64,000 bases of DNA, taken from positions 62,001 to 126,000 of the forward strand of contig NZ_JAUOSB010000001.1 of NCBI RefSeq assembly GCF_030548295.1, given 5' to 3'. A program made the translations under genes and the position numbers. The notes under the pieces are model-generated. The model saw only the letters and a list, made by a program, of their open reading frames with translations, was not told the DNA's origin and did no database searches. Within the stretch, counting starts at the first letter, position 1. Each line of letters begins with the position of its first letter. This DNA comes from Wenyingzhuangia sp. 2_MG-2023. GTDB lineage: Bacteria; Bacteroidota; Bacteroidia; Flavobacteriales; Flavobacteriaceae. This document shows, piece by piece, positions 761 through 57,330 of the stretch.

Positions 761-791
761 TGCTTAATTATAGCAAGTTTTTGCTTAATTA
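761..791. promoter_or_regulatory. Direct-repeat operator, two TGCTTAATTA copies 21 bp apart
   Basis: TGCTTAATTA occurs at 761-770 and 782-791, a 21-bp period or two helical turns. The match extends to TGCTTAATTAnAG. AraC-family activators classically bind direct half-sites at this spacing, and an HTCS with an AraC-type output domain is encoded at 58125-62267. The site ends about 60 bp before the GH29 start and 28 bp before a -7 box. Related repeats with the same 21-bp period sit upstream of two T9SS genes (33971-34000 and 57301-57330). Regulator assignment is inference. Confidence 0.6.
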
Positions 792-819
792 GAGTAACAG
801 CAAAACTTCTATTGACATC

Positions 820-827
820 TATTTTTG
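820..827 (+). promoter_or_regulatory. Bacteroidetes -7 box (TATTTTTG) for the GH29 gene
   Basis: TATTTTTG fits the Bacteroidetes consensus TAnnTTTG. It lies 25 nt before the proposed GH29 start codon and 28 nt after the direct-repeat operator. I see no good -33 TTTG at the usual spacing, which would suit an activator-dependent promoter. Confidence 0.45.
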
Positions 828-852
828 TAAATACAATCAAACAAATAACATT

Positions 853-2385
853 TTGATAAACAAAAATTACACAAACCCACTTATCATTCTGTTTTTATCA
901 ACTTTATTGGCTTTTGGTCAAAAAAAACAAAATGAGATTAAGAAAGATAAAATAGCTGCTAACTGGGAATCTATGACTGATAACTATCATGTACCTGAGT
1001 GGTTTCAAGATGGAAAGTTTGGAGTTTGGTTTCATTACGGAATTCCTTCTTCAATAGATGAAAACAGACCCAATGACGGTTCTCATTACGGACGAAGAAT
1101 GTATGGTGCTATAGACGGAGAAAAAGAAGGTCAACTTAAAATGACTGAAACATTGACTGAATGGCATGTTAAAGAATATGGAGAATTATCCGAATTTGGA
1201 TATGAAGATTTTATCCCTAAGTTTAAAGCTGAAAATTTTGATGCCAATAAATTAACAGCATACATTAAAAGTATAGGAGCTAAATTTATTATGCCCGTTG
1301 GTACACATCATGATAATTTTGACATGTATGATTCTTTTTTTGAATGGAACTCTGTAAAAATGGGACCCAAAAGAGATTTTCTTAAAGAATGGAAATTAGC
1401 CGCAGAAAAACATGATTTAAAATTTGGAGTTTCCACCCATTTGTATTGGTCACCTCGCTTTTTTGCCACTGCTCGTAAATATCAAAAAAAAGGGACTCCA
1501 GAATGGGATTTTTTCAACATGGATTATCACCCAAAAGAGTTTGCAAAACAGGATTCATGGAATCAGTTTTGGTATCAGCGTTGTTGGGATATTATACAAA
1601 AATACGACCCTGATATGTTTAATATTGATTCTTCTTACCCTAAAGAAAAAGGTAAAGATGAATCTGGATTAGGTCTTGAGTTATTTGCTAATTTTATTAA
1701 TAAAAATTTAGAAAAAAATTCTGGAAAACAAGATGTAGTACTCTCTCTAAAGGTTGGGCCTACCAATAAAGCAGCTTTTACCTATAACTTAGAAAGAGGT
1801 GGTGCCGCCACTATAAAACCAAACCCATGGATGTGGGCTACGGATTTGTCTGGAAATTGGTTTTACAGAAAAAATGCTATTAACAGAATGACGGTCCCTG
1901 TAATGATTGCTAATGGAGTAGATGCGATTAGTAAAAATGGAGTTGTTATGCTTAATGTTGCCCTTACTTCCGATGGAGTAATTCCAGAAAAACAAAAAAA
2001 ATATCTTTCTGCTTTTAAAGATTTGTTTGACGTGAATGGTGAAGGATTATATGGCACTAGACCTTGGAAAATATATGGAGAAGGTCCTCTAAAAATAAAA
2101 GAGGGTCGTCAAGGAGAAAATCATAAAGAATTTTCACAAAAAGACATTCGTTTTACCACAAAAGACGGGAATCTTTATGCTTTTGTATTGGCAACTCCTA
2201 CTGAAGATATTATCATTAAAACCCTAAAGAAAGGCGGAAAACTAGATAAGCAAATCAAAAAAATATCCCTGTTAGGAAGCAATGAAACCATTTACTGGGA
2301 ACAAAACACAAATGAATTAAAAATCACATGCCCTAAACAAATGCCTAATCAACCCATTATTGCATTTAAATTATTGTTAAAATAA
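853..2385 (+). CDS. GH29 alpha-L-fucosidase, secreted
   Basis: A 510-residue exo-enzyme that should release terminal alpha-L-fucose in the periplasm with retention of configuration. A signal peptide covers about residues 1-22 (hydrophobic core IILFLSTLLAF, then GQ). The GH29 TIM barrel starts near residue 48 with WFQDGKFGVWFHYG. THHDNF (151-156) matches the family's KHHDGF motif, and Asp259 in MFNIDSS is the expected nucleophile. The C-terminus is a short beta-sandwich. The start is a TTG; no ATG lies upstream in frame before a stop and this start gives a proper signal peptide. It is the first gene of the rightward cluster, 13 bp before the next gene, and is preceded by a direct-repeat operator and a -7 box. 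Fucosidase family membership is confident; linkage specificity cannot be read. Confidence 0.9.
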   Translation: MINKNYTNPLIILFLSTLLAFGQKKQNEIKKDKIAANWESMTDNYHVPEWFQDGKFGVWFHYGIPSSIDENRPNDGSHYGRRMYGAIDGEKEGQLKMTETLTEWHVKEYGELSEFGYEDFIPKFKAENFDANKLTAYIKSIGAKFIMPVGTHHDNFDMYDSFFEWNSVKMGPKRDFLKEWKLAAEKHDLKFGVSTHLYWSPRFFATARKYQKKGTPEWDFFNMDYHPKEFAKQDSWNQFWYQRCWDIIQKYDPDMFNIDSSYPKEKGKDESGLGLELFANFINKNLEKNSGKQDVVLSLKVGPTNKAAFTYNLERGGAATIKPNPWMWATDLSGNWFYRKNAINRMTVPVMIANGVDAISKNGVVMLNVALTSDGVIPEKQKKYLSAFKDLFDVNGEGLYGTRPWKIYGEGPLKIKEGRQGENHKEFSQKDIRFTTKDGNLYAFVLATPTEDIIIKTLKKGGKLDKQIKKISLLGSNETIYWEQNTNELKITCPKQMPNQPIIAFKLLLK

Positions 2386-2398
2386 ATTTATTTCTAAA

Positions 2399-3619: not shown

Positions 3620-3672
3620 CGTTTATAAAAAAGAATTATTCACAAGGAAAAGATCAGCAGTAAACAGTCAAG

Positions 3673-11016: not shown

Positions 11017-11295
11017 CCTTTCCTAAACCCAAAATTTTCCGAAACTAAAAACACAACTGATTAAGGTTAATACATGACAATTAAAACACCCCCGTGTCTA
11101 TAAAAAGTAAAGAAATAAGTGCTCATATAACTAATATGATTGATTAAAGTAAGAAAAAAAAAGAATACAGAAAACGTAGTTTTAAATATCGATTTAATTT
11201 TGTCTAAGTGAACTTCACTCTTATGATGATTCAATCAAAAATATTTTATTATATGAATCTGTTTACACCTAAAAAAACCTAAAAATTAAATACTC

Positions 11296-12834
11296 ATGAA
11301 TACATTTATTTTTTTTAATAAGAGAATAGTTTTTATCCTATTGATGTCTGCCATTTGGTTTTCAAATGCCCAAACAAATTCAGAAAAACCTAATATCGTT
11401 TTTATATTATGTGATGATTTAGGCTATGGAGATGTACAAAGTTTGGCTCCAGAAACAAGTAAAATTAAAACACCACATATAGATAAACTAACAGAGCAAG
11501 GGATGGTTTTTACAGATGCACATTCAGGGTCTTCTGTCTGTACACCAACTCGTTATGGAATTATGACAGGGCGTTATAGCTGGCGATCTAAGCTACAAAG
11601 CGGAGTAGTATCTGGTTTTGCTCCAGATTTAATTAAAGAAGACCGTCCAACGGTTGGAAATTTCCTTGGTAATCAAGGATATAATACAGCAATCATCGGA
11701 AAATGGCATTTGAATTTTCAATATATAGATTCTATTTCGAAAACAACGATTCGAAAAAAGGGTAGAAATTTGCCTCCTGTAGGTTCAACCATACCAGATG
11801 GACCAATTCATAGAGGATTTGATTATTACCATGGTTTTCACCATGCTGGTAGTATGAAAGCAGTTATAGAAAACGACAAAGTAATTCTTCATGAAGACGA
11901 AATAAATATGTTACCTCGTTTGACCAGTAAATCTGTAGCTTATATTAATGACCAAGCAAAAAATAAAGATGGTAAACCATTTTTTCTATATGTTCCTTTA
12001 GGTTCTCCACATACACCAATACTCCCTTCTAAAGAATGGCAAGGTAAAAGTGGACTTGGAGCCTATGCCGATTTTGTAATGCAAACAGATGCTACAGTAG
12101 GAGCAATTACAAAAGCACTAAAAGATAATGGATTTTCTGAAAACACATTGGTGATTTTTAGTAGCGATAATGGAACTTCTAAAGCAGCAAATATAAAAGG
12201 ACTTGAGAAAAAAGGACATATTGTAAGTGCAGGTTTTAGAGGATCTAAATCTGATTTATGGGATGGAGGTCACCGTGTTCCTTTTATTGTAAGATGGCCT
12301 GGTAAAGTAGAATCGGGTTCTGTAAATCATAACTTAATCTGTTTAACAGATGTATTTGCTACTTTTTCAGACATTATAAATGTAGCTGTACCTAGTAATA
12401 GTGGTGAAGACAGTGTTAGTTTCTTACCAGCCTTAAAGGGTCATAAAATAAAGAGTACTAGAACTGGTGTGATACATCATTCAATTAGTGGACATTTTGG
12501 ATATAGACAAGGAAAATGGAAGTTGTTATTAGCTAGAGGATCAGGAGGTTGGAGCTCGCCACAAGAAGATGATACTACATTAGACAATATGCCTATTGCT
12601 CAGTTATATGACATGGAAAACGATGCAGCCGAAACAAATAATTTATACTTAGAGCGTCCAGAAATTGCAGAAAAGCTATTACAACTTTTAGAAAATGATA
12701 TTAAAAATGGAAGAGGTACAACAGGAGAATTTTCTCAAAATGATATTGATGATATTATTTTATGGAAAAAAAGAACTGTTAATAGAAGTCAAAAGGCTAA
12801 AAATAAAATGAAAAAGAAGAAATCTAAAAAATAA
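11296..12834 (+). CDS. S1 family sulfatase (CTPTR type) with lysine-rich tail
   Basis: A 512-residue sulfatase with a signal peptide ending near WFSNAQ (residue 26). VFILCDDLGYGD, Cys82 in VCTPTRYG, GKWHLN, SPHTP and FSSDNGTS are all present. It resembles the preceding sulfatase through the C-terminal half (SGHF, YRQGKWKLLLA, GSGGWSSP), so the two look like duplicates. Unlike its neighbour it ends in a run of about twenty mostly basic residues (KKKKSKK at the very end). A 279-bp gap upstream may hold its own promoter; a TAATTTTG box is present in that gap. A strong terminator follows at 12874-12920. Confidence 0.9.
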   Translation: MNTFIFFNKRIVFILLMSAIWFSNAQTNSEKPNIVFILCDDLGYGDVQSLAPETSKIKTPHIDKLTEQGMVFTDAHSGSSVCTPTRYGIMTGRYSWRSKLQSGVVSGFAPDLIKEDRPTVGNFLGNQGYNTAIIGKWHLNFQYIDSISKTTIRKKGRNLPPVGSTIPDGPIHRGFDYYHGFHHAGSMKAVIENDKVILHEDEINMLPRLTSKSVAYINDQAKNKDGKPFFLYVPLGSPHTPILPSKEWQGKSGLGAYADFVMQTDATVGAITKALKDNGFSENTLVIFSSDNGTSKAANIKGLEKKGHIVSAGFRGSKSDLWDGGHRVPFIVRWPGKVESGSVNHNLICLTDVFATFSDIINVAVPSNSGEDSVSFLPALKGHKIKSTRTGVIHHSISGHFGYRQGKWKLLLARGSGGWSSPQEDDTTLDNMPIAQLYDMENDAAETNNLYLERPEIAEKLLQLLENDIKNGRGTTGEFSQNDIDDIILWKKRTVNRSQKAKNKMKKKKSKK

Positions 12835-12920: not shown

Positions 12921-13204
12921 ATGCTTTTTTATATAAAAAAGAAGAATTCTTATACAAGTAAGATTTATCATCCACTTCTCACAAACACATAAACAACTAA
13001 AAACAAACACCTTAATCAATGTATATTGATTATTCTTGTTGCTTTATAATTGAAAAGAGATAGTAAAAGACCTAAATAAGCATGAGTTATAAGAAAAAAA
13101 AGGCAAAATTGTGAACTATATATTAAGAAGGAATATTTTTTTTTCAATCTGAAAAGTAAAAATGTTAAAAACAAATATCAGTTCTTATAGTAAAAAAACA
13201 CAAA
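12921..13204. other. Intergenic region before the first T9SS glycanase
   Basis: About 280 bases with no coding potential seen. It must hold the promoter of the downstream gene, but I find neither a clear TAnnTTTG box nor the 21-bp repeat there. Confidence 0.4.
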
Positions 13205-15214
13205 ATGTCAAAGCTAAAGATATTATTAATGTCACCTCTTTTCCTTTTGTTAGGAAACAAAATTCATGCACAACATCTTTGGTATGAAAACGAAACTGAA
13301 ACGGAAAACATTACATTTACAAGAACAGTAGATGGTACTTTTACTACAGATGAAACCAATCCAGATGTTAGCGGTATAAATATAAACACAACAAGTTCTA
13401 AGTTTGTTAGAAATGCAGATGTAAATAGAGGATTCACCTATTTTGATTTATTTACCCCACTAACAACTGCTTCAAAATATACAATTACCTTAAAAGCCTA
13501 TACAGATGTTGCCACTTCAGACTTATCGTCTGAACCAAATCGACTACGTATCTATTTACGAAATACAACTACTGGAGATTTTAAACAGATAACAAAAAAA
13601 TTCACAATAGGTCAGGCATGGGAAGAGTTTTCTTTTGTTTTTGATAAAGCTGATTTCACAACAGAAGGCTTAGGAAGTGGAGGTTATAATCAATTAGATA
13701 TAGGTTATGGAAATGGACAAGAATCAACATCTACAATAACTTATTATATAGATCAGATTCACGGATCCATACCACAAATACCTCTTGAAGAAGTTCTTAA
13801 AGGATCTTGGGGTGGTCGTTTTTACATAAGAGCTGGGGAGGATTTAGATGACTATGTGGATAATAGAGGCTATGATTATATTGCAGGAGCGCAAGAAATT
13901 GCTGACAGTTATCCTACAATGGGGCATGTAATAACCAATGCTACCAATAATGCAAATTCACAATTATGGACTTTAAGAACAAATCCTAATGTAGATACTG
14001 TAATGGGAGCTACAGGTTCAGTTGTAGATGAAGAATTTGTACCTAGTTTAGCTAATGAACAAATCATTATTGATGTTATTGATATCTTTAAAAATTCAGG
14101 TAAAAAAGTTATTTTATATGTAAATACGCAAAGTCCAGCAAATAGAGCTACAGCAGCAGGAGCAGTAGCTTGGAATAATTATGTAGATACTTATTTTGCT
14201 GGTGATGGTCATGCAGCATGGATGAACTATTGTGAAGGTTACATCAAACGTTTTACAGAAATAGGAGTTGATGGATATTGGTTTGATTCATTTGGAAGTT
14301 ATAATATAAATAATAGTCTTGGAGCTAATGATGTTGCTAGCACTACTGAACAAAAAGCTGAATTTGTAGCAATGATTCGTAATGCAGCTCCTAATGCTAT
14401 CATAACAACCAATATTGATAAAGATTCTTTTGTTGATGAAAATGGAGATTTAATATTGGTAGATACTGATGGAGTTGATGAATTGGTAGGTGTTGATGGA
14501 ACTGGTGATGATCCTAATAGAGATTATGCTATTATAAAGATGACAGCAACTAACCCTTGGTCAGACCTTACAGCAGGGCATATTACACCTTTAGGGCAAG
14601 GAGCTCCTCCTAATTCTTGGGCGTATGAAGAATTCACAGTAACAGATATTGAAGAATCATCAATATCTATATATGAAGAAAACTCTAAACAAACATTAAA
14701 GCATTTGTTTTTACCTATAAGATCTACTTGGTCTAGCGAAAGGTCTGACTTAATGTTTGATGATGAACAAGCGTATCGTTTTGCGAAAAGAATTACAGAT
14801 GCAGGAGGATCCGTTACATTTTCAAACACAACAGCTACAGATGGTACCACATCAGAAGATGAAGTAGAAATATTAACATTTATAGATCAACAATTTGCTA
14901 TCAATGCGGATGCTACAGTTTATGTACGTCCAGAGGGAGCATTTCTTGTTGGAGAAGATCAAAACCTCTCTATAGAAACTAGCCTGAAGGATGATTTACC
15001 TCTTAGAGCATTTCCTAATCCTGTAAAAGATGTTTTTAGTCTTACAAAGGAGGTAGCATCTGGTGTTTTGTATAATGCACTAGGAGCTAAATCATATCAA
15101 TTTAATAATCAATATAAAAACATAGATATATCAAATCTAAGTGTTGGTTTGTATTTATTACAGGTAAATTATAAGGATGGACGTAAAGAACATTTGAAAC
15201 TATTAAAAGAGTAG
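13205..15214 (+). CDS. T9SS-exported putative glycanase of unassigned family
   Basis: A 669-residue multidomain protein. It has a signal peptide to about residue 23 and a beta-sandwich, carbohydrate-binding-like domain (about 25-188). A barrel-like catalytic candidate begins SWGGRFYIRAGEDLD (about 200-530). A T9SS type A sorting domain (about 600-669) starts with FPNPVKDVFSL and ends HLKLLKE. Candidate acids are Asp361 in DGYWFDS and Glu475/Glu476 in WAYEEF; all align with the homologue at 27249-29231. The overall plan is that of an extracellular endo-acting enzyme. I cannot place it in a GH family. Export is well supported, glycanase is inferred from context and motif style. Confidence 0.65.
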   Translation: MSKLKILLMSPLFLLLGNKIHAQHLWYENETETENITFTRTVDGTFTTDETNPDVSGININTTSSKFVRNADVNRGFTYFDLFTPLTTASKYTITLKAYTDVATSDLSSEPNRLRIYLRNTTTGDFKQITKKFTIGQAWEEFSFVFDKADFTTEGLGSGGYNQLDIGYGNGQESTSTITYYIDQIHGSIPQIPLEEVLKGSWGGRFYIRAGEDLDDYVDNRGYDYIAGAQEIADSYPTMGHVITNATNNANSQLWTLRTNPNVDTVMGATGSVVDEEFVPSLANEQIIIDVIDIFKNSGKKVILYVNTQSPANRATAAGAVAWNNYVDTYFAGDGHAAWMNYCEGYIKRFTEIGVDGYWFDSFGSYNINNSLGANDVASTTEQKAEFVAMIRNAAPNAIITTNIDKDSFVDENGDLILVDTDGVDELVGVDGTGDDPNRDYAIIKMTATNPWSDLTAGHITPLGQGAPPNSWAYEEFTVTDIEESSISIYEENSKQTLKHLFLPIRSTWSSERSDLMFDDEQAYRFAKRITDAGGSVTFSNTTATDGTTSEDEVEILTFIDQQFAINADATVYVRPEGAFLVGEDQNLSIETSLKDDLPLRAFPNPVKDVFSLTKEVASGVLYNALGAKSYQFNNQYKNIDISNLSVGLYLLQVNYKDGRKEHLKLLKE

Positions 15215-22463: not shown

Positions 22464-25020
22464 TTATTTTGTAAAAGAAAATGTTTTTGAGTCTTGATGT
22501 CTCCATACTTTTACGGTATGTTGCTGATTAGCTAATTTTTTCATGATTTTAATAAAATCTTGTTCATTGGCTATTTTTTCCGAATTTAATTCAAATACGA
22601 CGTCATCCACTTCAAATCCCATTTTAGCCAATTTACTATTCTTAGGAACAGAAACCAGTAACACTCCGTAGGTGTCAAACATTCCTGTTGCAGAAAGTTC
22701 TGCTTCCGTTTCTAGTGTTTTAAATTTAGCTCCAAATAATACTTTCAACTTTGACTTCGCAAATACATTAGAGGCTACATCTTTAGGAGCAAGAATTTTA
22801 GGTTTCATTGCCAAATTTTTCAATTTATCAGAAGTAACACCAAAACCAGTCATCTCAAAGTTTTTAAAACCAAGACTTAATGCTGCTGATTTATTTGAGA
22901 CGGTAAAGTCGCCATGTTGAGGTTTTCCCGAAAAAAGAACATTACCATACAAACTTTCAGCATCATCCTGTGTTTGTTCTTGTGCACCGTAAGCAGGTAC
23001 AACATTTTCAGAATCAGGATTGTGAACGAAATTGAAATTTCTAGTTCCTCCCCAAAGTGTTGGATTACTAGAACGATATATTGGTGAACCCCATAGAATA
23101 TTTCTTTCAAAAATATCATGTGTTGGTTTTGGATAGGGCACATTACAGGTGTATCCTTTTCCGAGGATTACATTATTTGTAACGGTACGGTGATATCCTT
23201 CACGTGTTTTTATACCACCTGATAGACTTATATTATTGTAAATCTCATAATTGGTAGATCCATCATCCAAGTCGATATCCCAACCATGATCACATTGCAT
23301 TCTGTTATTTCTAATAGTAGTTGTCTGATAAGCATCCCACAAAGGAGCATTTGGATATTTCTCTATATAATAACTAATCATTGCTTTTCCATTCTTATCT
23401 CTAAAGTCAGGTCCAGAAGGTCCAGCTCTAAACCAAATAACGATCTCTTCCCCAAGAATTAAAAGCTCCATGATCGTGTGTTTCTAAAACCGTTTCAAAA
23501 CAATCATTCCATTCTATAATATGACCTCCCCAAGTACCATCGCAAACGTTAATGGCAGCTCTTGGTGTGTGACTAATGGTGTTATGACGAAGTGTAATTC
23601 TTGATGACATAGAAATATTAATTCCTGAGGCTTGTTTTTCAAAACGACCACAAAGCATCATTAAATTATTTTCAACAATACAATCTGCTGGATACTCTTC
23701 AGATTTAGGTCCAATAGTAGTATCTATTTCATCCAATGGTGGAGGAAGATGTTGAAAACTAAATGAAGGATCACGAACTGCAGCAAAGGAACCAACAAAG
23801 TTCACATCCGTAGAACCATTATTTTGAAAAATATTTTCTTTTATTTGGATATTACGACTGTAGCTATCAACAAATACTGCATTTCCTCCCAATTCTTTAA
23901 AAGAACAATGATCGATGACAATATTTTCTGTTCCTCTCATATGGATGGCTCCACCACGGTATACACACCAATCACTTCTTAGTAAAGGCTCAATGGTTTC
24001 TCTTAAAGTTCTTTTAGTACCTGTAAAATGAATCCCTGTAATATGAACGTTTTTAACAGCTTTGTTTGTTTCGTAATTTTTAACAACGGTCTCTTTTTGT
24101 GCATTACCACTTTTGTGAATAACCATTTCTGCAACAGGTAGTTTATAATCTCCGTAAACTTCAATAAGGTGCTTAATTTGAAGCACAGCTTCAATTTTTG
24201 TGTTGTTAAGATTTACATGCGCTTCTGGCATATAATACAACCAACCGTCCTTAGTATTATGATACCATTCCCCAGGAACATCTAATTCTTCAAAAACGTT
24301 TTCTATCATTCGATACCCTTTGTGAGGTGGAGCAGAACGGTTGTTTTGCCAACCCCCTTCGTACACCAATTCGCCTTTATTGTTTTTACCAGTCACAAAA
24401 TAATGCTGACTTCCCCATAATCCTCTGTGCATACCGTTTAGAATGGCTCCGGTAGGATCTTTCCATTCAGCCGCTTTTTTAGCATCCCAAGCATCTGGAG
24501 CTGCTCCTGAAAAAGGAACTGTTCCTGCTTTTTTTCCACGTACAGAAGGATCACCATCTGTAGGTATAAAACCAGTATTAAAATTAGGATATCGTGCCAT
24601 GTGTTGTCTTTTCTGATCTACAAAAAGTTGATCAATTGCATTTAAATCTCCCACATGGGTACGATAAATACCATCTTTAAATTTTTCCCATTTAGAGGTG
24701 ATTAATTGTGCTCCTGTAATAACTACGTTTTCATTTTTAGCTGCCGAATAAACAACAGGAAATTGTTCACTACCACTATCTGCTGTGGTAATTTGTAAAG
24801 GTGTTTTTAATCTATAAACTCCCTCATGTATCATAATGTTACATGCTTCTTTTCCTATACGTCCACTAGCTCTTAATTTAGCTTGAGCTGCTTTTATAGT
24901 TAGCAAAGGTTTAGACTCTGTTCCATCATTGGCATCCGAACCATGGGGTGCGACATGAATATCTAGTGCATACATTGACACAACACACAAGATTAATAAT
25001 AAGGTAATTACTTTTTTCAT
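22464..25020 (-). pseudogene. GH141-like beta-helix protein with C-terminal PDZ domain, frameshifted
   Basis: The N-terminal 530 codons (signal peptide, then DIHVAPHGSDANDG and IDQLFVDQKRQHMARYPN) end at NSWGRDRYLV and a stop. In the next frame the protein continues from WFRAGPSGPDFR to 22464. The break is one extra base in a three-base run: AAA at 23435-23437 on the plus strand, TTT on the coding strand, where two would read RYWFRAG. The repaired product would be about 850 residues, ending in a PDZ-like domain (FEVDDVVFELNSEKI) instead of the chitobiase domain of its homologue. With only one lesion in a short homopolymer, sequencing error remains possible. Confidence 0.8.
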
Positions 25021-26589: not shown

Positions 26590-26597
26590 CAAAAATA
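26590..26597 (-). promoter_or_regulatory. Bacteroidetes -7 box for the leftward operon
   Basis: On the minus strand this reads TATTTTTG, the same box found before GH29 and the T9SS gene at 33059-33913. It ends 28 nt before the ATG of the broken sulfatase that heads the operon. No 21-bp repeat is seen upstream. Confidence 0.35.
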
Positions 26598-26841
26598 TAA
26601 CATACCACTAGTAAATATATTCTCTAACTCACCATTTCCTTGCTCTATATTAATAAAAACAAACTCTAGAACATGACAACTAAGAGTTCTGCTTCTATTT
26701 AACTAAAAGTATGTTACCTACTGATTTTAAACTAAATACCACGTAATATTCTAACCCAAAAAAATAATTAACAATGAAGTTTTAAGTCATTTAGAGCAAG
26801 TTTTTGACGATATAGAGAAAATACTATTGTTATATATATAG

Positions 26842-27135
26842 AGTAACTTTGAAGAAGTTTATCGGAAGAAAATAACTAAAGTAGGAAGAAGTACCAAAGG
26901 AGGATTTTCTAAAAATGACATAGATACCTCGTTGTATATTTTAGTAATCTTAAATGATAAAAAAAGTGCCAGTTCGAGTGATTTTTGATAGAAAATTGTA
27001 TCGAGAATCATTTTTTTCCTGAAATTAAGTTTTTGATTCAAAACTATTTTGAATTTCTTTCAAATTGATAAATTTCACTCTAAATGCACAACGGGTATAG
27101 CTAATATTATTCCATGGAAAAGTGAAAACAATTAA
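26842..27135 (+). pseudogene. C-terminal remnant of a CTPxR-type sulfatase split by an insertion
   Basis: The left part reads VGRSTKGGFSKNDID and the right part NIIPWKSENN then TAA at 27133-27135. Joined, they match the end of intact sulfatases nearby (NGRGTTGEFSQNDIDDII at the end of 11296-12834; IVLWKSGNQ at the end of 9499-11016). An in-frame TAG at 26839-26841 bounds it upstream. A 171-bp insertion at 26926-27096 separates the halves. Confidence 0.75.
26926..27096. mobile_element. MITE-like 171-bp insertion with inverted ends and target duplication
   Basis: The left end begins ACCTCGTTGTATA and the right end finishes TGCACAACGGGT, which are imperfect inverted repeats. Flanks are ATAGAT (26920-26925) and ATAGCT (27097-27102), a 6-bp target duplication with one mismatch. 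Removing the element plus one copy restores the reading frame of the sulfatase remnant exactly (NDID-NIIPWK). It encodes no transposase. A 60-codon minus-strand frame at 26859-27041 overlaps it but resembles nothing I know. Confidence 0.65.
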
Positions 27136-29231: not shown

Positions 29232-29459
29232 ACATAGTCTATAACAGACTTTTGTCTGTCCATACACTAGCCTTAGAGCATTTATACCCCCAGAAAGTCA
29301 TCTACCTAGTAGAATAAAAACCTATTGACTGATATGTTTACACACATGGTTGTTTTTGATATTTATAGTGTATTATTTGTATTTACATAAATAATTATCA
29401 TAGTTAGGAGTGTTTTTTTACGAAAACAGTGGATTTAAACAACGTTATGATTAAATACA

Positions 29460-29488
29460 GAAATGTTTTGCATTCCATAAAACATTTC
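29460..29488. promoter_or_regulatory. Perfect inverted repeat before the T9SS sulfatase
   Basis: GAAATGTTTT at 29460-29469 and AAAACATTTC at 29479-29488 are exact inverted copies around a 9-nt centre. The site ends 26 nt before the ATG at 29515. It could be an operator or a 5'-UTR hairpin; there is no T tract to make it a terminator. Confidence 0.4.
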
Positions 29489-29514
29489 TTTGTATAAAAT
29501 TTAAAATAATAATA

Positions 29515-33940: not shown

Positions 33941-33948
33941 CAAAAATA
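33941..33948 (-). promoter_or_regulatory. Bacteroidetes -7 box of the T9SS binding-protein gene
   Basis: TATTTTTG on the coding (minus) strand, 27 nt before the ATG. It lies exactly 22 nt from the proximal TGCTT half-site, the same distance as in the 57271-57326 promoter. Confidence 0.5.
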
Positions 33949-33970
33949 GAAGGATAGAATGATGTTTTCT

Positions 33971-34000
33971 TGCTTGATTCAGTCAATAACATGCTTTATT
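33971..34000. promoter_or_regulatory. Direct-repeat operator, TGCTTGATT and TGCTTTATT 21 bp apart
   Basis: Half-sites at 33971-33979 and 33992-34000 on the plus strand match the TGCTTAATT pair upstream of GH29 with the same 21-bp period. Likely a binding site for an AraC-type output domain such as that of the HTCS in this window. Confidence 0.55.
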
Positions 34001-34023
34001 CTTGTGGTTTTTTTTATAGTTTA

Positions 34024-34187: not shown

Positions 34188-35790
34188 TTACTCTTTTATA
34201 ACTTTTAATGTTTTAAAACCAAATGGAGTCTTAATCTTTGCAAAGTAAATTCCTGTTGCTAAATCACTAACATCGTAGTTTCCATTACCATTAAATGTTT
34301 TTAATAAACGACCAGTAATATTATATAATTTTACATTTTCAATAGCTATACTAGAGTCTATTTGAAAACTGCTTGTTACAGGATTAGGATAAGCAACCAT
34401 AGAAGCATTAACGAATTCAATGTTATCTGTTGGTAACGTAAGCTGAAGAAGGACCTTGAAAAGCATCTAGATAATATATATTTCCTGTAGCAAGAAAATC
34501 CGCATCAGGTTGGTCAATTAATAGGTTTACAGTGCTATAAGATACACCTTCTGTAAGGTTTGTCTCTGAAAAATCAAAGGTGTATTCTTGCCATTGATCA
34601 AAAACAGTAACATCAATTGTAACGTTCTTTTGTCCTGCTGTTTCAGTTCCATCTCGTAAAAACAATCTTAATCTTCTACCAGAACTTCCATCTACATTAG
34701 TTGAAGGTGCATAGGCTCTTATTTTAAAAATAGCAGAGGATTGATTTGCTGTTGTAATAACACCTGGTAATTGAAACTTTATTTGCGAGTGTGCTTCATC
34801 TTCTTTTGTGAATTTGGCAACTAATGGACTGCTATTTCCAATAGTAGTTGGTGTAGTCACTGCTGATTCTTGTTCTAAAAACACACCACCTAGTACTTCA
34901 AAAATTGTTGCTCCAAATATATCTGAACTATAGTGATGATACCACTCATTTCCTGCATCCAAAACTGCTTCTGGATCTAAAGTATCTACAGGAACAACTT
35001 TATCAATAACATTAAAATTATATACTCTTACTGCAGTAACTGATTCTGAAGTACCTAAATCTAAATCTATAACTTCAAATTTAATAGGTGTTGGTGTTGT
35101 TGAAAATGTAACAGTTCCAGCATAAGTAGCAGTTAATGCTTGATATAGACCAGTACCACCTTCAGTCTCGCTATATGTAAAAGTTTGTGGTGTTTCATAT
35201 AAATATCCACATCCGTATACTGGTATTGAATAGTCAAAACGATTTGTCTATACCCGTAACTACATTTGTTAAAATGCTTTCCCAAGAAATCCATGTAATT
35301 CCAATATGATTGACATCTACGTGCGTTTTGAAATTTGGATCTCTTAACAAACTATTCACCAAGATTCCATCTGCAACCGCATGGTAAAGCCATTGTTCCT
35401 GTAATGGGCTGTCAACATCGTTAAAAAAATCATCCCTTTTAGGATCCTGCGTATTTAAAATTAGAATCCTTATCACAGACACCTGCTCCTCTAAAGCAAT
35501 GGCTATGCTATATATCCTTATTCACCCCATATAATAAAAGCATCTCCCCCCCCATGCATCAAATCTGCAACAGATATTTTTTTCCTTTTTTAATATGTTT
35601 AGCCCCACCACACCAACAACAAAAAAATTATCGATATTCTTTGCTTTGGCTAAAGGTAAACCCTCTATAAACAATCCTCGTATATTGGTAAAACAATTTA
35701 GAATTGTCATACGTTTTAAAAGTATCTACAAATTCATAATTAGGAGTTATAAATACTCCTTCTTTCTTTAAAATACTTTTACATATTTGG
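34188..35790 (-). pseudogene. Chimeric pseudogene: alpha/beta-hydrolase (acetyl-xylan-esterase type) fused to a T9SS protein tail
   Basis: Reading leftward across several frames, the first half is a decayed alpha/beta-hydrolase. Its blocks are GVFITPNYEFVDTF, GLFIEGLPLAKA, KKISVADLMHGGGGDAF, PLQEQWLYHAVADGILVN and HIGITWISWES. The last is a damaged GxSWG nucleophile site and is followed by VPVYGCG-like IPVYGCGYLYE. From about 35190 the sequence changes to a beta-sandwich binding domain (RRLRLFLRDG, WQEYTFDFSE, IYYLDAFQG) and a T9SS domain ending LKVIKE. Lesions include stop codons near 35500-35520, a frameshift at a T-run near 35250 and another at about 34435-34460. The fusion point suggests a deletion joined two neighbouring genes. 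Confidence 0.75.
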
Positions 35791-46693: not shown

Positions 46694-46854
46694 AGAAAAA
46701 ACAATGCAAAGCATTAAACCGAATGTTTTACATATAAATAGTTTAAAACTTTAAATGGGAGATTACAGAAAGGATTTGAAAGATACGAGAACGCAACAAA
46801 CAACTATATAGTAATATTTTTGAGTTCTAATCATTAACTCATAATTTAAACGTA

Positions 46855-49233
46855 ATGTTAAATTTTAAAACCGTAAAAACATTTATTCATGTTCTTATGT
46901 GCTTCTGTTTTTATACAAATTACACCAATGCACAATCTGTAGATGTTAAGGTAGATTACGAATCATTCTTATCTAAACATGATCTAGTTTGGGATCTAGT
47001 TCCAGACAAATGGGAAACTGCTCCTTATACAGGAAACGGAAATGTAGGTTTTCTTTTTCATCAAAATAAAGAAGAAGGAAACAATGTAATGTCTATTTAT
47101 GTAGGTAGACATGATTATTCCGACCATAGAGAAGCTCCTAAAACAAATCAAATGTTATGGATTAAGAGGGGACGTCTGCCTTTAGGATATTTTAACTTAA
47201 CTTCTAAAGGAAATATTACCGGAGTAAGTTTAAGATTAGACTTATGGAATGCCGAATTGGTTGGTAACGTAACTACAAACAAAGGAAGCTACAAAATCAA
47301 AGGATTATCTCATAGCGAAAAAGACCTTATTTATTTTGAAACCGACGCTAAGGATGAAAACATTAAAATTACTTGGCACCCTAGCAAACCCATCCCTCCT
47401 GTTTACAAAGTTTTAAGCAAAGGAAGAGGTCCCAAAGGAACTACTTGGGATAAAATGCGTGCAGAAAAATTAGAAATGCCAAATGCTCCTACTTTTAGCG
47501 AAAAAAACGGATACGAATTCTGTTTCCAGCCATTGGTACAGCACAGAGGAGAAACGACTACAGGATGGAAAATCTCTGGAAAATCTAATAAGAAACAACA
47601 ATTACTAACAAGTGTACATCATAGTTTCCCTGAAAAAACATCATTAGAAACAGTTACTAAAAATCTAGATTTAGGATTTAAATTACTAAAAGAAAATCAA
47701 TTTATAGAAACGCATCAAAATTGGTGGCATGAATACTATCCTAAAAGCTTTGTGACTTTTAACGATCCTGAAAAAGAATCTTTTTATTGGATACAAATGT
47801 ACAAGTTTGGTGCTGCTACTAGAGGAAATGGACCTATTATGGATTTGATGGGGCCTTGGTATCACGACACTTTTTGGCCAATGGTTTGGGGAGATTTAAA
47901 TGTAGAATTACAGTACTGGACACATTTAACCGCAAATCGTTTAGAAGTAGGAGAATCTTTAATTAACAATATTGATAAATATGCAAGTCACCTAGAAGGA
48001 AATGTACCTGATAGATGGAAAAACAGTGCTGCTATTGCGGCCTTGTTTCCTCAAAACATGGATGCTTACAATGGTGCTAAAGTGCCAGATATGTTGGTGT
48101 GGATTTTAAATAATTATTGGTTGCATTGTGAGTTTGCTGGAGATCATGAGCGCATGAAAACTGGTTTATTTCCTATTCTAAAAAAAGCTGTAAACAGCTA
48201 TCTTAATTATATCAAAGAAAATCCAGTTCCAAGTAATGATGGTAAAATACATATTAAAAACAGCTGGTCGCCAGAATACCCTAGTGGACATGGACAAGAC
48301 GTTAATTTTACGCTGGCCTTAATTCGTTGGGGCTGTCAAACATTGGTAAATATCAATGATGAATTTAACCTAAAAGATCCTTTAAAAAAAGAATGGCAAA
48401 ACTTACTTGACAATTTGGTTGAATTTCAGATTGATGAAAATGGATTGAGAATCGGTAAAGATATAGCTTTTCAAAAACCACATCGTCATTATTCTCATTT
48501 ATTAGGTTTTTACCCTTTGGCTGTAATTACACCCGAAACTAACGAAAACAAAGCCTTGTTAAAAAAATCTTTAGACCATTGGCTAGATGTTACTTTTAAC
48601 AGCAATATAAAAGTAACTGCTATGCCCGTAACAGGCTATACTGCTACAGGAGCTTCTTCTATGTATGCTTGTTTGGGAGATGAAACCAAGGCTTATTATT
48701 ATTTAGATTTTTTAATTAAACATAAAAATATTTCTCCGACCACCATGTATGCAGAAGGAGGAAATCCTGTGATTGAGAGCCCATTGTCTTTTGCTACTAG
48801 TGTGCACGACATGTTGTTACAAAGTTGGGGAGGAAAAATCCGCGTATTTCCTGCGACACCTAAAAAATGGGAAGACGTTGCTTTTAACAATCTTAGAACA
48901 CAAGGTGCCTTTTTAGTAAGTGCAAAAAAAACAAAAGGATCCACTGAATTTGTAGCTGTAAAAAGTTTGCAAGGAAAACAATGTTGGATTCAAACAGATC
49001 TTAAAAACCCTAATATATACATCAATAATCAAAAAGTAAATATCAAAAAAAATAAAAACGGATTTTACAACATTCCTTTAAAAACGAATGAGACAGCAAT
49101 TATCACAGACAAAAGTTTAGATAAAACTGATTTGACCATTAACGAATTACCCGTTAAAGAAAAAAACAAAAACCTATTTGGTTATAGCTCTAAAACAAAG
49201 AGATTACCTAGTCATTCCTATTATTCTAAATAA
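46855..49233 (+). CDS. GH95-like alpha-L-fucosidase/galactosidase
   Basis: A 792-residue protein with a signal peptide ending near NAQ (residue 27). The N-terminal beta-domain has APYTGNGNVGFLFHQ (about 56-70). The (alpha/alpha)6 barrel has WGDLNVELQYW (345-355), NSWSPEYPSGHGQDVNF (469-485) and HRHYSHLLGFYPL. The C-terminal domain has WEDVAFNNLRTQGAFLVSA. GH95 enzymes are inverting and release alpha-L-fucose or L-galactose. At the place where GH95 fucosidases carry the paired Asn residues I see Asn349 and Glu351, a possible specificity change. The 160-bp gap upstream may contain a promoter. Family call good, exact sugar uncertain. Confidence 0.8.
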   Translation: MLNFKTVKTFIHVLMCFCFYTNYTNAQSVDVKVDYESFLSKHDLVWDLVPDKWETAPYTGNGNVGFLFHQNKEEGNNVMSIYVGRHDYSDHREAPKTNQMLWIKRGRLPLGYFNLTSKGNITGVSLRLDLWNAELVGNVTTNKGSYKIKGLSHSEKDLIYFETDAKDENIKITWHPSKPIPPVYKVLSKGRGPKGTTWDKMRAEKLEMPNAPTFSEKNGYEFCFQPLVQHRGETTTGWKISGKSNKKQQLLTSVHHSFPEKTSLETVTKNLDLGFKLLKENQFIETHQNWWHEYYPKSFVTFNDPEKESFYWIQMYKFGAATRGNGPIMDLMGPWYHDTFWPMVWGDLNVELQYWTHLTANRLEVGESLINNIDKYASHLEGNVPDRWKNSAAIAALFPQNMDAYNGAKVPDMLVWILNNYWLHCEFAGDHERMKTGLFPILKKAVNSYLNYIKENPVPSNDGKIHIKNSWSPEYPSGHGQDVNFTLALIRWGCQTLVNINDEFNLKDPLKKEWQNLLDNLVEFQIDENGLRIGKDIAFQKPHRHYSHLLGFYPLAVITPETNENKALLKKSLDHWLDVTFNSNIKVTAMPVTGYTATGASSMYACLGDETKAYYYLDFLIKHKNISPTTMYAEGGNPVIESPLSFATSVHDMLLQSWGGKIRVFPATPKKWEDVAFNNLRTQGAFLVSAKKTKGSTEFVAVKSLQGKQCWIQTDLKNPNIYINNQKVNIKKNKNGFYNIPLKTNETAIITDKSLDKTDLTINELPVKEKNKNLFGYSSKTKRLPSHSYYSK

Positions 49234-50934: not shown

Positions 50935-51050
50935 AGCTACAGAAATAACAAACCGAATAGAGCAACAAATTGACAGAAATGAGAATCTAAAATTCACTTA
51001 ATAAGAATATTTTTGATAAGTAAATTAAGACTTATATTAAAAATAACAAA

Positions 51051-52580
51051 ATGTATTTTATAAATAATTTTCTAAAATTGACATGTTCTATTATTCTGAT
51101 AACAGTTCAATTATCTTTTGGTCAAAAAACAAAACCCAATGTGATTTTTATTTTTTCTGACGACCAAAGATTCAACTCTTTGAGCATGACAGGAGACCCT
51201 ATTACCCAAACTCCTCATATTGATCAACTAGCAAAAGAAGGTGTCTTTTTTAACAATGCCTATATTACAAGTCCTATCTGCGGACCAAGTAGAGCAAATA
51301 TTTTTACAGGACAATGGGAACGTAAAAATAAAATTGGATTTAATTACATTTCTAAAAACATCATCTCTAAAGAAACTTATCAAAACAGTTGGTTAGCACA
51401 ATTAAAAAAAGCGGGGTATTCTACTGCTTTTATTGGAAAGAGTCACACCAAAATTGCTGACAGAAAAAACACTCCATTAAATGAGAATACTGATTTTGCT
51501 TATTATGGAGAAGGTCACTTAGGATTTTATCCAGCAAAAAAGCACAAACAGTTTTCTAACTTAAAAAACGAGACACAAATAGAAGGACTGCTAGAGGCAA
51601 CTAAAGCTTATTTAACACAAGATAATAGCTATGATTATTTTTACAAAAATGCCCTTCCCTCTATTCAAAATCAATTAAAAAAAAGAGACCCTAAAAAACC
51701 CTTTTCTACATGGATTAATTTAAACCTTCCTCATGCATCTAGTATTGGAGGAATGGGATCACGCACTACAGACCCTGAGTATTACAAAACTCTTTACAAT
51801 GATGTAAAGAATAAAATTGATTTGCCAACAGGATATCCACAAGACATTAGTTTACCAGACAATGTCTACGCTACTAAAGATTTGATGAAGTACTACGTAA
51901 CATCTAACAAAAACAAATTGTTAAACGAGAAGCTTAAAATGGATAGAGCAATATATGCTATTGACCTTATGGTTGGGAACTTGCGTACTTATTTAAAAGA
52001 GATAGGTGAGGATAAAAACACAATCATTATATTTTGTTCTGATAACGGCTTGTTTCTAGGAGAACACGGCCTGGGTGGTAAAACCATTTTGTATGATGAG
52101 TCTGTACACGTACCTTTAATTGTTTACTCTCCTTATTTTGACAAAAAAACAAAAGGTAAAACAGTTAGCGAAATGGTTGTTGGTCAAGATATTCCTGCCA
52201 CTATTTTACAAATGTGTGGTATAGATATTCCTAAAACCTACCAAGGAAAAAGTCTGCTTCCTTTAATTGAGAACAAAAAATACAATTGGAGAAATGAAAT
52301 CTTTTTAGAAAACTTATTTACGGATCAAGGATATCCAAGACAAGAAGGAGTTCGTAGCAAACAATACAAATATATTCGTTCTTTTAGCAAAACCAATGAC
52401 AGAAAAAAATACCTACCTCATCAAACCTTCAAAACAAAAGAAGCACCTATTTACGAAGAATTATTTGACATTGTAAAAGACCCTAAAGAGCAAAATAACT
52501 TAGTTACAAACCCTGCTTACAAAAAGGAATTAGAGTATTATAGAGACCGATGTACAACCTTAGTAGAAGAACTTTATTAA
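51051..52580 (+). CDS. S1 family sulfatase (CGPSR type)
   Basis: A 509-residue sulfatase of a separate subtype from all others in the window. Signal peptide ends at LSFGQ (residue 25). VIFIFSDDQRFNSL carries the metal ligands, Cys77 in ICGPSRAN is the formylglycine precursor, and GKSHTK replaces the GKWH motif of the other sulfatases. LPHASS, FCSDNGLFLGEHG and PIYEELFD follow, as in iduronate-2-sulfatase- or choline-sulfatase-like proteins. It has its own gap of 193 bp after a terminator, so may be separately transcribed. A remnant of a second copy lies at 17191-17409. Confidence 0.9.
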   Translation: MYFINNFLKLTCSIILITVQLSFGQKTKPNVIFIFSDDQRFNSLSMTGDPITQTPHIDQLAKEGVFFNNAYITSPICGPSRANIFTGQWERKNKIGFNYISKNIISKETYQNSWLAQLKKAGYSTAFIGKSHTKIADRKNTPLNENTDFAYYGEGHLGFYPAKKHKQFSNLKNETQIEGLLEATKAYLTQDNSYDYFYKNALPSIQNQLKKRDPKKPFSTWINLNLPHASSIGGMGSRTTDPEYYKTLYNDVKNKIDLPTGYPQDISLPDNVYATKDLMKYYVTSNKNKLLNEKLKMDRAIYAIDLMVGNLRTYLKEIGEDKNTIIIFCSDNGLFLGEHGLGGKTILYDESVHVPLIVYSPYFDKKTKGKTVSEMVVGQDIPATILQMCGIDIPKTYQGKSLLPLIENKKYNWRNEIFLENLFTDQGYPRQEGVRSKQYKYIRSFSKTNDRKKYLPHQTFKTKEAPIYEELFDIVKDPKEQNNLVTNPAYKKELEYYRDRCTTLVEELY

Positions 52581-52648: not shown

Positions 52649-52657
52649 AATCAATTG

Positions 52658-52880: not shown

Positions 52881-52979
52881 TGCACATACTTCTAGTTTAG
52901 ATTGTAATAAGCTATACTAGTTAACAAACCAAACGGCTAAAGTCTATAATTTTTTTTCATCTTTTAGAATTCCTTAAAA

Positions 52980-53011: not shown

Positions 53012-53093
53012 GGCCATTTTATTTTTTACTAATAGCAAATAATTCACCTGCTTGTTTTGTTCTTTTCTAAAATGAAAACTCGTTTTACTTTAT

Positions 53094-55004: not shown

Positions 55005-55053
55005 TAAGTTCAAATTTATTTCACACATAATAGTATGTATGGTTATTAGTAAA

Positions 55054-55087
55054 AAAATGCATTAACAAATTAATGTTAATGCATTTT
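55054..55087. terminator. Terminator, GCATTAACA family
   Basis: AAAATGCATTAACA and TGTTAATGCATTTT are exact inverted copies around AATTAA. It lies after the small secreted protein on the minus strand. Confidence 0.8.
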
Positions 55088-55117
55088 ATAACATTTCGAT
55101 TACTTCAATATGGTAAT

Positions 55118-55465
55118 TTATTTATTTTTCTTCTTTTTACCAGCATTCATTATTTCAGTTGCTCTCTCTTTACCAAAAGCATCATTTAATTTTTTTATTA
55201 AATTATTCTTGTTTGCTTTTACTTCGGTTTTGTATTTAGCAGGATCACTTTTTTTTAAGGCTCTTAAATCTAAATGCTTACTTATATAGGCTTTATTAAA
55301 TTCAATAAATGTTTCTTTTTCAGACTCGGATAGTTCAATGCTTTTTTCTATTAGTTCAATTTTGTTATTTGTTATTTTTATAGCACGTTTTTCATTTTTA
55401 GACTGTGCCATAGTAGATACACTAATTAATAACCCTAATACGACTGTTAATAAAATTTTTTTCAT
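55118..55465 (-). CDS. Small secreted protein of unknown function, 115 residues
   Basis: A signal peptide (MKKILLTVVLGLLISVSTMA, cleaved near Gln21) is followed by about 90 charged, helix-forming residues. The pattern has ELSESEKETFIEF and DAFGKERATEIMNAG and ends in GKKKKNK. I recognise no domain; the helical, charged body may form a coiled coil or bind an anionic polymer. It has a truncated relative at 35886-36122 and a degenerate one at 52658-52880, so the family has multiplied in this region. The upstream region has one TGCTTTATT half-site (55546-55554) but no clean partner at 21 bp. Confidence 0.65.
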   Translation of the reverse strand: MKKILLTVVLGLLISVSTMAQSKNEKRAIKITNNKIELIEKSIELSESEKETFIEFNKAYISKHLDLRALKKSDPAKYKTEVKANKNNLIKKLNDAFGKERATEIMNAGKKKKNK

Positions 55466-55807
55466 TTTTCTGTTTTTAAATTATTATTGAGTTACGAAAT
55501 AACAACGTTTTAGTGTTATTCATTGTCGGTAATCGTTTGAATCTTTGCTTTATTCTAGCATTTGGTCAATTTATTGCAATTTTTATTTTTAAAACCTCTT
55601 TTACCAGCTTTGGATATAGAATTAAACAATCATGTGTTTTCATATGTTCATTTGCTATTAAAGAGTTTATCTAATAATATGATTGCTGGGAGTTCTAATT
55701 AAAAAACATCAATAACAGTAATCTAATTAAAAATATTGAATAAAGGTTGTTTACCTAAACCAATCATAATACCCTTAGAGATTAGAATATAACACTATTC
55801 ACAAAAG
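55466..55807. other. Spacer upstream of the small secreted protein, no gene seen
   Basis: About 340 bases without coding potential. A TGCTTTATT half-site of the operator type lies at 55546-55554; the position 21 bp to its left is degenerate (TGTCGGTAAT nearby). Confidence 0.35.
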
Positions 55808-55842
55808 TCAAAAGGCAGCAATTTAAAATTGCTGCCTTTTGA
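55808..55842. terminator. Terminator with 17-bp perfect arms
   Basis: TCAAAAGGCAGCAATTT and AAATTGCTGCCTTTTGA flank a single central A. It ends the leftward T9SS gene, 43 bp past its stop. Confidence 0.9.
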
Positions 55843-55884
55843 TTATCAGTTATTAAGATTATAACGTTGCCTATAAAAAAATAT

Positions 55885-57240
55885 TTATTTTTTTACAATC
55901 TTTAACGTTTTAGAGCTTGATGGTGTCTTAACATTTACAAGATAAATTCCTGTTGCTAAATCACTAATATCATAATTATCTTTTGCATCAAATGTTTTTA
56001 ATAAACGACCTGTAATATTATATATTTTTACGTTTTCAATAGCTGTATTAGCATTTAATTGAAAAGTATTGGTTACAGGGTTAGGGTATGCTGTAATTGT
56101 TGTCTCTTGAGTAGTAAGATCATCTGTAGATAAAGTTTCAGCTGCTGGAGTCTGTACCGCATCTATATAAAAAACGGCACCATTTGAAGCCTCACTACTA
56201 TCACCTTGATTTACTAGAAATACAATTTCATCGTATAAATTATTAGGAACCCCTGAATCTGTTGGAGTTTCTGCTGATAAATCTATACTAACTTCATTCC
56301 ATGTATTGTATACAAGATCAGTTCTTGAAGTTACAATTTGACCATCACCTGAACTGTTAGCTCTAACACGAATTTGCACATTAGGATCTGCTACATCTGG
56401 ATTACATTCTGGATAAATTCTAAATTTTAAATTACCAGTTGTATAGTCAAAAGAATAGTTACCTGTTATTTTAGCTCCTGTTGATGATCTGTCATCACCT
56501 CTTGTTATTTTTAAAACAGTAGGGCTGCTATTACCATTAGTTGTTGGTGTAGCTTGAGCTTCTTCTACTGTAGAAGCAATAAAATCGCTTGCAGTTCCAT
56601 TAAAAGCATCAGGACTATTATTGTACAACCATTGATTTCCTGAATCTAAATCAGCTGTATCATCAGCAAGAACTGCAGGTAAAGATGTATTTACTCGTGA
56701 CCCTTCAAAAGCATCAATATACATAGGCTCAACTACAGCTGCTTGTAATGAATGTATAATTAACATTCTGTTATACCCACCAGCATCTGTAATACTTGCA
56801 GTAGCACTGTTTTCTGCAACTACTTCATCAATTATTTGCCATGAACCTCCTGTATTGTTTATTGCTACTACTTGATTTCTAGCATCTGATCCGTTTCCTA
56901 AAACGTCATTAAATAATCGAACACGTAATCTTCCTGATCCAACACCATTAGCTCCATCATTTGCTGTGTAATATTTCATTTTAAAAGTATCACCAGGAAA
57001 AAGAGCTTCTGGCAATATAAATGTAACTGTTTTACCTGCTGAACTTGCTTCAATACTCGTTACGTTTGTATTCATATTGTTTACATCTGGAGCTGGGTTT
57101 GCGACAGAATTAACTGTTGTTACCCCGTTGTTTGTGTCTTCTACAAAAAACACACATTCATCAGCAGCATGATAAGTGCTTTGTGAAAATCCAAACAATG
57201 ATGTAAGGGCTAATGTTAAAGTAAGTAATCTTTTTTTCAT
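55885..57240 (-). CDS. Secreted T9SS-sorted protein with two carbohydrate-binding-like domains
   Basis: A 451-residue protein. A signal peptide (MKKRLLTLTLALTSLFGFS) is followed by two related beta-sandwich modules (about 20-180 and 195-365). Each has the pattern of a receiver strand with RLRVRLFND or NVQIRVRANS, then SWQIIDEVVAE or WNEVSIDLSAE, then YIDAFEG or FYIDAVQT. A T9SS type A domain (about 380-451) begins YPNPVTNTFQL and ends LKIVKK; its text is nearly that of the broken gene at 34188-35790. No catalytic domain is seen, so surface glycan binding is the likely role. Upstream lie a -7 box and a 21-bp direct repeat. Confidence 0.75.
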   Translation of the reverse strand: MKKRLLTLTLALTSLFGFSQSTYHAADECVFFVEDTNNGVTTVNSVANPAPDVNNMNTNVTSIEASSAGKTVTFILPEALFPGDTFKMKYYTANDGANGVGSGRLRVRLFNDVLGNGSDARNQVVAINNTGGSWQIIDEVVAENSATASITDAGGYNRMLIIHSLQAAVVEPMYIDAFEGSRVNTSLPAVLADDTADLDSGNQWLYNNSPDAFNGTASDFIASTVEEAQATPTTNGNSSPTVLKITRGDDRSSTGAKITGNYSFDYTTGNLKFRIYPECNPDVADPNVQIRVRANSSGDGQIVTSRTDLVYNTWNEVSIDLSAETPTDSGVPNNLYDEIVFLVNQGDSSEASNGAVFYIDAVQTPAAETLSTDDLTTQETTITAYPNPVTNTFQLNANTAIENVKIYNITGRLLKTFDAKDNYDISDLATGIYLVNVKTPSSSKTLKIVKK

Positions 57241-57270
57241 AATTTAAATATTTTTAGATTAATAATATAG

Positions 57271-57278
57271 CAAAATTA
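57271..57278 (-). promoter_or_regulatory. Bacteroidetes -7 box of the two-module T9SS gene
   Basis: TAATTTTG on the coding (minus) strand, matching TAnnTTTG, 30 nt before the ATG and exactly 22 nt from the nearer TGCTT half-site. Confidence 0.5.
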
Positions 57279-57300
57279 AAGGACAATAGTTGTTTAAAGT

Positions 57301-57330
57301 TGCTTAAATCGGTCAATACTTTGCTTTTTT
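57301..57330. promoter_or_regulatory. Direct-repeat operator, TGCTTAAAT and TGCTTTTTT 21 bp apart
   Basis: Half-sites at 57301-57309 and 57322-57330 on the plus strand share TGCTT and the 21-bp period with the sites at 761-791 and 33971-34000. The spacer shares the CAATA block with the 33971 site (GTCAATA in both). Confidence 0.5.

Follow-up and report, generated by a model that had tools for sequence, protein, structure and literature searches.

A 21-bp direct repeat as the predicted operator of a hybrid two-component system at fucoidan gene promoters of Wenyingzhuangia sp. 2_MG-2023

Background

Which regulator switches on the genes of a polysaccharide utilisation locus (PUL) of the type directed at fucoidan, a sugar of brown seaweeds, and by which signal in the DNA are they recognised? 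This question is raised by a stretch of 64,000 nucleotides from the marine bacterium Wenyingzhuangia sp. 2_MG-2023 (contig NZ_JAUOSB010000001.1, positions 62,001 to 126,000; "the window", whose numbering is used throughout). It encodes such a locus, with many sulfatases, GH29, GH95, GH141-like and GHL15 glycoside hydrolases and several proteins with a tail for type IX secretion (T9SS). A preliminary description, made from the sequence alone, noted pairs of TGCTT exactly 21 bp apart at 761/782, 33971/33992 and 57301/57322 (sites 1, 2 and 3) and proposed that they form an operator of the hybrid two-component system (HTCS) encoded in the window.

We conclude that the repeats are, with good confidence, half-sites of a predicted operator of this membrane HTCS (58125-62267). 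The HTCS very probably turns the fucoidan gene set on, since the same element recurs in relatives that carry this type of sensor-regulator. What was observed is the sequence, its rigid geometry, the gene content and the joint occurrence of the element with the HTCS and with DNA-binding domains of its type. Comparative genomics strongly supports the idea of an operator of the window HTCS; the motif first proposed was too narrow, its sites were too few and the reversed orientation of the GH29 copy is not supported.

Architecture of the element

The three TGCTT pairs are the only mismatch-free occurrences of TGCTT-N16-TGCTT in the window. With up to one mismatch, 17 are found, compared to 6.3 +/- 2.7 in 100 shuffles. 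The literal half-site TGCTTnATT did not hold, the actual half-site being longer. The pattern TGCTTNATT-N12-TGCTTNATT occurs twice in the whole genome (3.98 Mb), both times in the window (761 and 33971), and the copy at 57301 deviates from it by 2 mismatches; with two genome matches only, it is too narrow to serve as a regulon pattern and was discarded. The AAGCA core alone is too short as a search motif, because in the non-coding parts of 20 loci its one-mismatch pairs are no more frequent at 21 bp (14) than at other spacings (6-23). Exact AAGCA pairs in the same loci are slightly in excess (4, against 0-3).

Below, G000 denotes the own genome and other G numbers other Flavobacteriaceae genomes; C numbers denote contigs. 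Orthologues of the window HTCS (E<=1e-250) were detected in 14 of 397 family genomes, the own one included, and their neighbourhoods were compared. Just behind the HTCS gene, two orthologue loci contain the exact sequence AGCA-N17-AGCA-N22-TAnnTTTG. Scanning of 433 upstream regions with this skeleton led to a longer consensus, and a weight matrix was refined on all loci but those of G000; sites 2 and 3 had shaped the seed pattern. The exact skeleton with gaps of 20 to 24 nt (AGCA-N17-AGCA-N{20,24}-TAnnTTTG) is matched 25 times in the 14 HTCS genomes (11 times at gap 22), its reversed form twice. Only four of the 25 matches lie inside HTCS neighbourhoods, and the exact skeleton is useful as a seed only.

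The 21-bp direct repeats are real, yet they are only part of a larger element. It consists of two copies of approximately TGnnnGAWWnRAGMAA exactly 21 bp apart, followed after 22 (sometimes 23) nt by TAnnTTTG, the sigma-A box of Flavobacteriaceae. The gap is counted from the proximal AGMA core in the weight matrix derived from loci of relatives. The distance of 22 nt reported earlier for sites 2 and 3 is correct. These two sites also share AAGCANNNTATTGACNGANTNAAGCAA, and genome-wide no third match to it exists within 3 mismatches, the pattern having been written from the two sites themselves.

Geometry was examined in a held-out set, namely nine of ten newly fetched HTCS loci and an 80-kb stretch of Mariniflexile fucanivorans, the outer part of which was picked for its matches to R1, a profile built from 35 sites of relatives. 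Among 21 promoters defined by the proximal half-site and the -7 box alone, 20 have the distal half-site at 21 bp; in the remaining one it was not found. Conversely, in 30 operators defined without the -7 box, this box follows at gap 22 in 20 cases and at gap 23 in four. The stretches separating operator and box vary from site to site. A promoter of an extracytoplasmic function (ECF) sigma factor was considered and rejected, being contradicted by TAnnTTTG-type boxes at fixed distance in operators; TAnnTTTG belonged to the seed, and the verdict rests mainly on the operator-only spacing test.

With TAnnTTTG placed at -12 to -5, proximal AGMAA maps to positions around -38 to -34. Two of 84 distinct sites have TTG between offsets -23 and -18 relative to the box, the place of a -33 element; three of these six offsets overlap operator columns and were thus selected.

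Distribution in the genome and in relatives

Profile scanning of 989 kb (89% coding; training loci included, G367:C8 and G379 being near-duplicates) gave 59 places scoring >15. Of these, 54 are wholly non-coding, and the reversed sequence gave a single one, at 17.8. Further 391 kb of untrained DNA, from regions picked because R1 matched there, contain 50 such places (46 wholly non-coding), while the reversed control stops at 12.7. With the final profile the G008 promoter at 183717 scores 22.0. According to the preliminary description, a motif common at random A+T-rich sites genome-wide would have spoken against an operator; the search was run, and its outcome did not do so.

In the own genome, which was outside training, ten places score >20. 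All ten are non-coding; nine are in the window and one lies outside, at C1:57051, before another GH29. Instead of three promoters, the window thus has at least nine. Eight of the ten had no part in shaping the seed. The ten promoters precede one gene each for SusC and GH95, two each for GH29 and T9SS-tail proteins and four for sulfatases.

Matches to R1 are clustered as well. Among the 17 G000 matches listed (E up to 0.045), ten are clustered in a 62-kb part of contig C1 (P 1.6e-14). Of the seven listed outside the locus, six are on C189, C200 or C233, the three other contigs with an HTCS of closely similar output domain, and two adjoin a paralogous HTCS on C189. Three more precede homologues of genes that carry the operator in relatives. 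These encode, on C189, a lipoprotein (51-66% identity, covering part of its length); on C200, a GH43-like protein (61-66% identity to genes of four relatives; Pfam score below cut-off); and on C222, a sulfatase (45-48% identity).

Occurrence of the element follows that of the HTCS. Most HTCS genomes searched with R1 gave training sites, and G215 was left out of this search; all seven HTCS genomes free of training sites (G000, G248, G440-G444) have matches at E<=5e-4. Among other family genomes, only one of 118 (G044) does, in a scan with stricter Infernal filters that lose weak matches and in a set where further HTCS genomes with known strong matches would have become apparent, but which may include G215. 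In 13 control genomes, matches at this threshold were found in one, G006, which has two. No match at E<=5e-4 was found in two genomes with distant HTCSs. All of the ten new HTCS loci, picked by protein similarity only and including that of M. fucanivorans, carry the element with a score >18. Of eight further loci with >=50% identity, six carry it and two (L189 and L193) do not within their flank; in two distant HTCSs, at 27 and 32% identity, the locus was likewise without it.

Downstream genes were taken from 64 match-gene pairs scoring >20 in ten chosen regions. Their 59 scannable proteins include 19 sulfatases, nine with T9SS tails, eight GH29, six TonB plugs, five GH43-like and three GH95. 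One operator-bearing gene of G008 encodes a GH107 fucanase.

Candidate regulators

Among the features expected of an HTCS operator, the element has a direct repeat with sites about 21 bp apart, position in non-coding PUL promoters, conservation with orthologous HTCSs and a regulator with AraC-type helix-turn-helix (HTH). G000 contains twelve output domains at E<=1e-12. Four HTCSs (on C1, C189, C233 and C200) are 63-100% identical in this domain, the rest at most 40%. In the control genomes G001, G006, G020 and G044, only output domains up to 41% identical were found.

Several observations weigh against the window HTCS as the regulator, or as the only one. Its paralogues exist, so it need not be the sole binder. 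A -7 box at gap 22-23 is missing from six of the 30 operators in the held-out set. Two of the 17 listed G000 matches (C200:111543 and C233:13834) lack a fitting target. G006, with two matches at E<=1e-4, and G044, with one at 2.6e-4, have no similar HTCS domain. HTCS loci L189 (G252:C1) and L193 (G248) have no match in the flank; both genomes match elsewhere. The two good operator matches in G006, a genome without a similar HTCS output domain, are L172 and L173 (C18:17510 and C8:170843). They are perhaps a remnant or belong to another regulator.

It is also conceivable, although unlikely, that a paralogous HTCS (C189, C233 or C200) binds the element instead of or alongside the window HTCS. The output domains of these three are 63-77% identical to that of the window HTCS, two matches lie directly beside the C189 HTCS and one, scoring 17.5, beside the C233 HTCS. 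However, it is the window HTCS that resides inside the 62-kb cluster, and its orthologues adjoin operator-bearing genes in many genomes. A tentative extension, which we regard as possible but not probable, is a shared operator code, where several HTCS sensors (four here, with output domains 63-100% identical) would use one operator on several contigs. If true, fucoidan genes across Flavobacteriaceae would form one multi-sensor regulon rather than one-sensor, one-locus circuits.

An even less probable binder is the AraC-family one-component regulator encoded just outside the window (G000:C1:128934-129836) by an L-fucose cassette. It has an AraC-type HTH, its gene is nearby and fucose is the product of the pathway. 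Nevertheless, the 13 HTCS genomes searched for it all have the operator, yet in five of them no orthologue (E<=1e-30) was found; it is present in G020, where the best operator match has E 0.078, and no match >15 precedes the fucose-cassette genes of G000.

Chance likeness of A+T-rich promoters, or spread of copies with duplicated promoter-gene units, might be suspected from the frequent loose matches (such as the 17 one-mismatch TGCTT pairs), from the position of both sites 2 and 3 upstream of T9SS-tail genes and from the one-mismatch AAGCA pairs, which are not enriched at 21 bp, but it is scarcely credible in view of the reversed controls, the genome-wide clustering, the unrelated downstream genes, the differing operator-to-box stretches and the rigid spacing in the held-out tests, which already contradict it.

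Since off-locus matches track similar output domains and the AraC regulator fits poorly, the HTCS group is the best candidate regulator.

Proposed mechanism and relation to known systems

From these data we infer binding, ligand and activation, as well as which HTCS paralogue acts where. Periplasmic fucoidan oligosaccharides would engage the propeller sensor of the HTCS, whose kinase would then phosphorylate the fused receiver. The two half-sites, lying 21 bp or two helical turns apart on one face of the DNA, may then each be occupied by a DNA-binding domain of AraC type. The core of the proximal half-site, 22 nt before TAnnTTTG (about -38 to -34), would occupy the place of a -33 box. As a -33 TTG is missing from these promoters, its contact is most likely replaced by the bound HTCS, which would recruit sigma-A polymerase. 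The predicted regulon comprises SusC, GH29, GH95, sulfatases and T9SS-secreted proteins, in a relative also a GH107 fucanase.

The fucoidan element belongs to a kind of HTCS operator that was already predicted for Bacteroides in 2013, with direct repeats about 21 bp apart. That work gives repeats averaging 21 bp apart for 16 of 36 HTCSs of B. thetaiotaomicron (Ravcheev et al. 2013, PMC3878776). Common to both are a direct repeat with sites about 21 bp apart, its position upstream of PUL operons and an adjacent HTCS with AraC-type output. In contrast to those regulons, the present one is found in marine Flavobacteriaceae and fucoidan loci; it has many promoters per locus as well as members elsewhere in the genome, and its operators keep a fixed distance to TAnnTTTG. 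The likeness is one of spacing and setting.

The window HTCS resembles BT4124 and BT4663 (PMC11253607) in domain order and in the receiver motif S/CHIP-DK, of which it has the CHIP part. There, promoter fragments were used in electrophoretic mobility shift assays, whereas the fucoidan operator is predicted from sequence. Sigma-A promoters of Flavobacterium psychrophilum have a TAnnTTTG -7 box at -12 to -5 (PMC9723704). The same box is present here; unlike in those promoters, it follows an operator at a fixed distance and comes without a -33 TTG. A xylan paper (PMC12125979) was set aside, as its regulator is of XylR type and has no bearing on the fucoidan operator. No operator for a fucoidan HTCS was found in the literature searched, which covered few subscription papers.

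Loci for fucoidan are of large size, with scattered genes. Through a defined operator, sulfatases, fucosidases and fucanases, together with secreted proteins whose function is unknown, would be tied into one regulon, which would include genes on other contigs. The operator also offers a model with which other genomes can readily be searched for fucoidan genes, and makes insulation between HTCS paralogues within one cell testable.

Promoters of the window and neighbouring genes

Predicted promoters of the window are listed in Table 1. Start-codon distances were measured to the first ATG of each open reading frame (ORF).

Table 1. Predicted promoters, candidates and the proposed regulator in the window. 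The nine promoters scoring >20 start at 285, 760, 11136, 26590, 29426, 33941, 46755, 50949 and 57271.
Position	Strand	Feature	Gene	Score	R1 E	Remark
285..352	-	operator 314-352, -7 box TATATTCG 285-292, gap 23	SusC	26.8	0.0021	SusC by Pfam
760..827	+	site 1: operator 760-798, -7 box TATTTTTG 820-827, gap 23	GH29 853-2385	23.1	0.0033
11136..11202	+	operator, -7 box TAATTTTG	sulfatase 11296-12834	31.5	0.010
13046..13084	+	doubtful operator-like stretch, no good -7 box	GH107 fucanase (presumed) 13205-15214	14.3 (operator-only)		below reversed control's best, 16.8
26590..26656	-	operator, -7 box TATTTTTG	sulfatase, interrupted frame (ORF 25039-26184)	27.8	0.0034
26783..26851	+	candidate: operator 26783-26821, TAACTTTG at gap 24	GH107 (presumed) 27249-29231, 397 nt on	21.6 (operator-only)		reversed control's best 16.8
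29426..29492	+	operator, -7 box TTTCTTTG	sulfatase from 29515	26.9	0.016
33941..34007	-	site 2: operator, -7 box TATTTTTG	T9SS-tail protein 33059-33913	28.6	8e-7	seed-shaping
46755..46822	+	operator, -7 box TATTTTTG, gap 23	GH95 46855-49233	31.7	0.033
50949..51015	+	operator, -7 box TATTTTTG	sulfatase 51051-52580	33.1	7.6e-7
55495..55561	-	weak candidate	115-aa protein 55118-55465	15.6		below best reversed control, 17.8
57271..57337	-	site 3: operator, -7 box TAATTTTG	T9SS-tail protein 55885-57240	39.4	8.7e-9	seed-shaping
58125..62267	-	HTCS, proposed regulator				Pfam: propeller, Y_Y_Y, HisKA, HATPase, receiver, AraC-type HTH

Site 1 has the lowest profile score of the nine. The GH29 copy had been read as reversed and as possibly serving the divergent gene at 1-122, which is in fact the N-terminus of SusC (start at 122, minus strand, running out of the window). 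The stretch 760-798 alone scores 15.0 on the plus and 14.1 on the minus strand, and this near-equality explains the earlier orientation. A -7 box at a suitable distance is present for the plus reading only; the minus reading fails to reach 15. Because the box fits the plus reading alone and a better operator of its own precedes SusC, we assign the element to GH29 and reject the divergent reading.

The T9SS-tail proteins at 13205-15214 and 27249-29231 (plus strand) match the solved endo-fucanases PDB 6m8n (P5AFcnA) and 8bpd. From the entry names we take these to be GH107, and hence the two proteins presumably are the GH107 of the window. No operator above the reversed control was found upstream of that at 13205. 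The candidate before the other was left out of the nine, its gap being beyond 21-23. Read by eye, a start codon lies close 3' of the promoter at 26590..26656.

The L-fucose cassette lies beside the HTCS, from window position 62852 on (G000:C1:124852-133929) and encodes an FGGY kinase, L-fucose isomerase, a class II aldolase and the AraC regulator. No operator match >15 was found upstream of its genes in the profile scan of G000; therefore it is probably controlled separately from the fucoidan operator, perhaps by its own AraC regulator.

Some PUL genes have interrupted or overlapping frames: 25039-26560 (minus strand), a sulfatase with its N-terminal part in another frame; 29515-32501 (plus strand), a sulfatase with T9SS tail that is spread over three frames; and 22464-25020 (minus strand), two overlapping ORFs. 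They represent pseudogenes or sequencing errors. A relative of the T9SS-tail protein 55885-57240 is likewise split over two frames (34194-34439 and 34441-35007, minus strand). Finally, the 115-aa protein at 55118-55465 (minus strand) is exported, and its relatives adjoin the HTCS in G008 (59%) and G004 (35%); small ORFs resembling it were noticed by eye in G218, G367 and G389.

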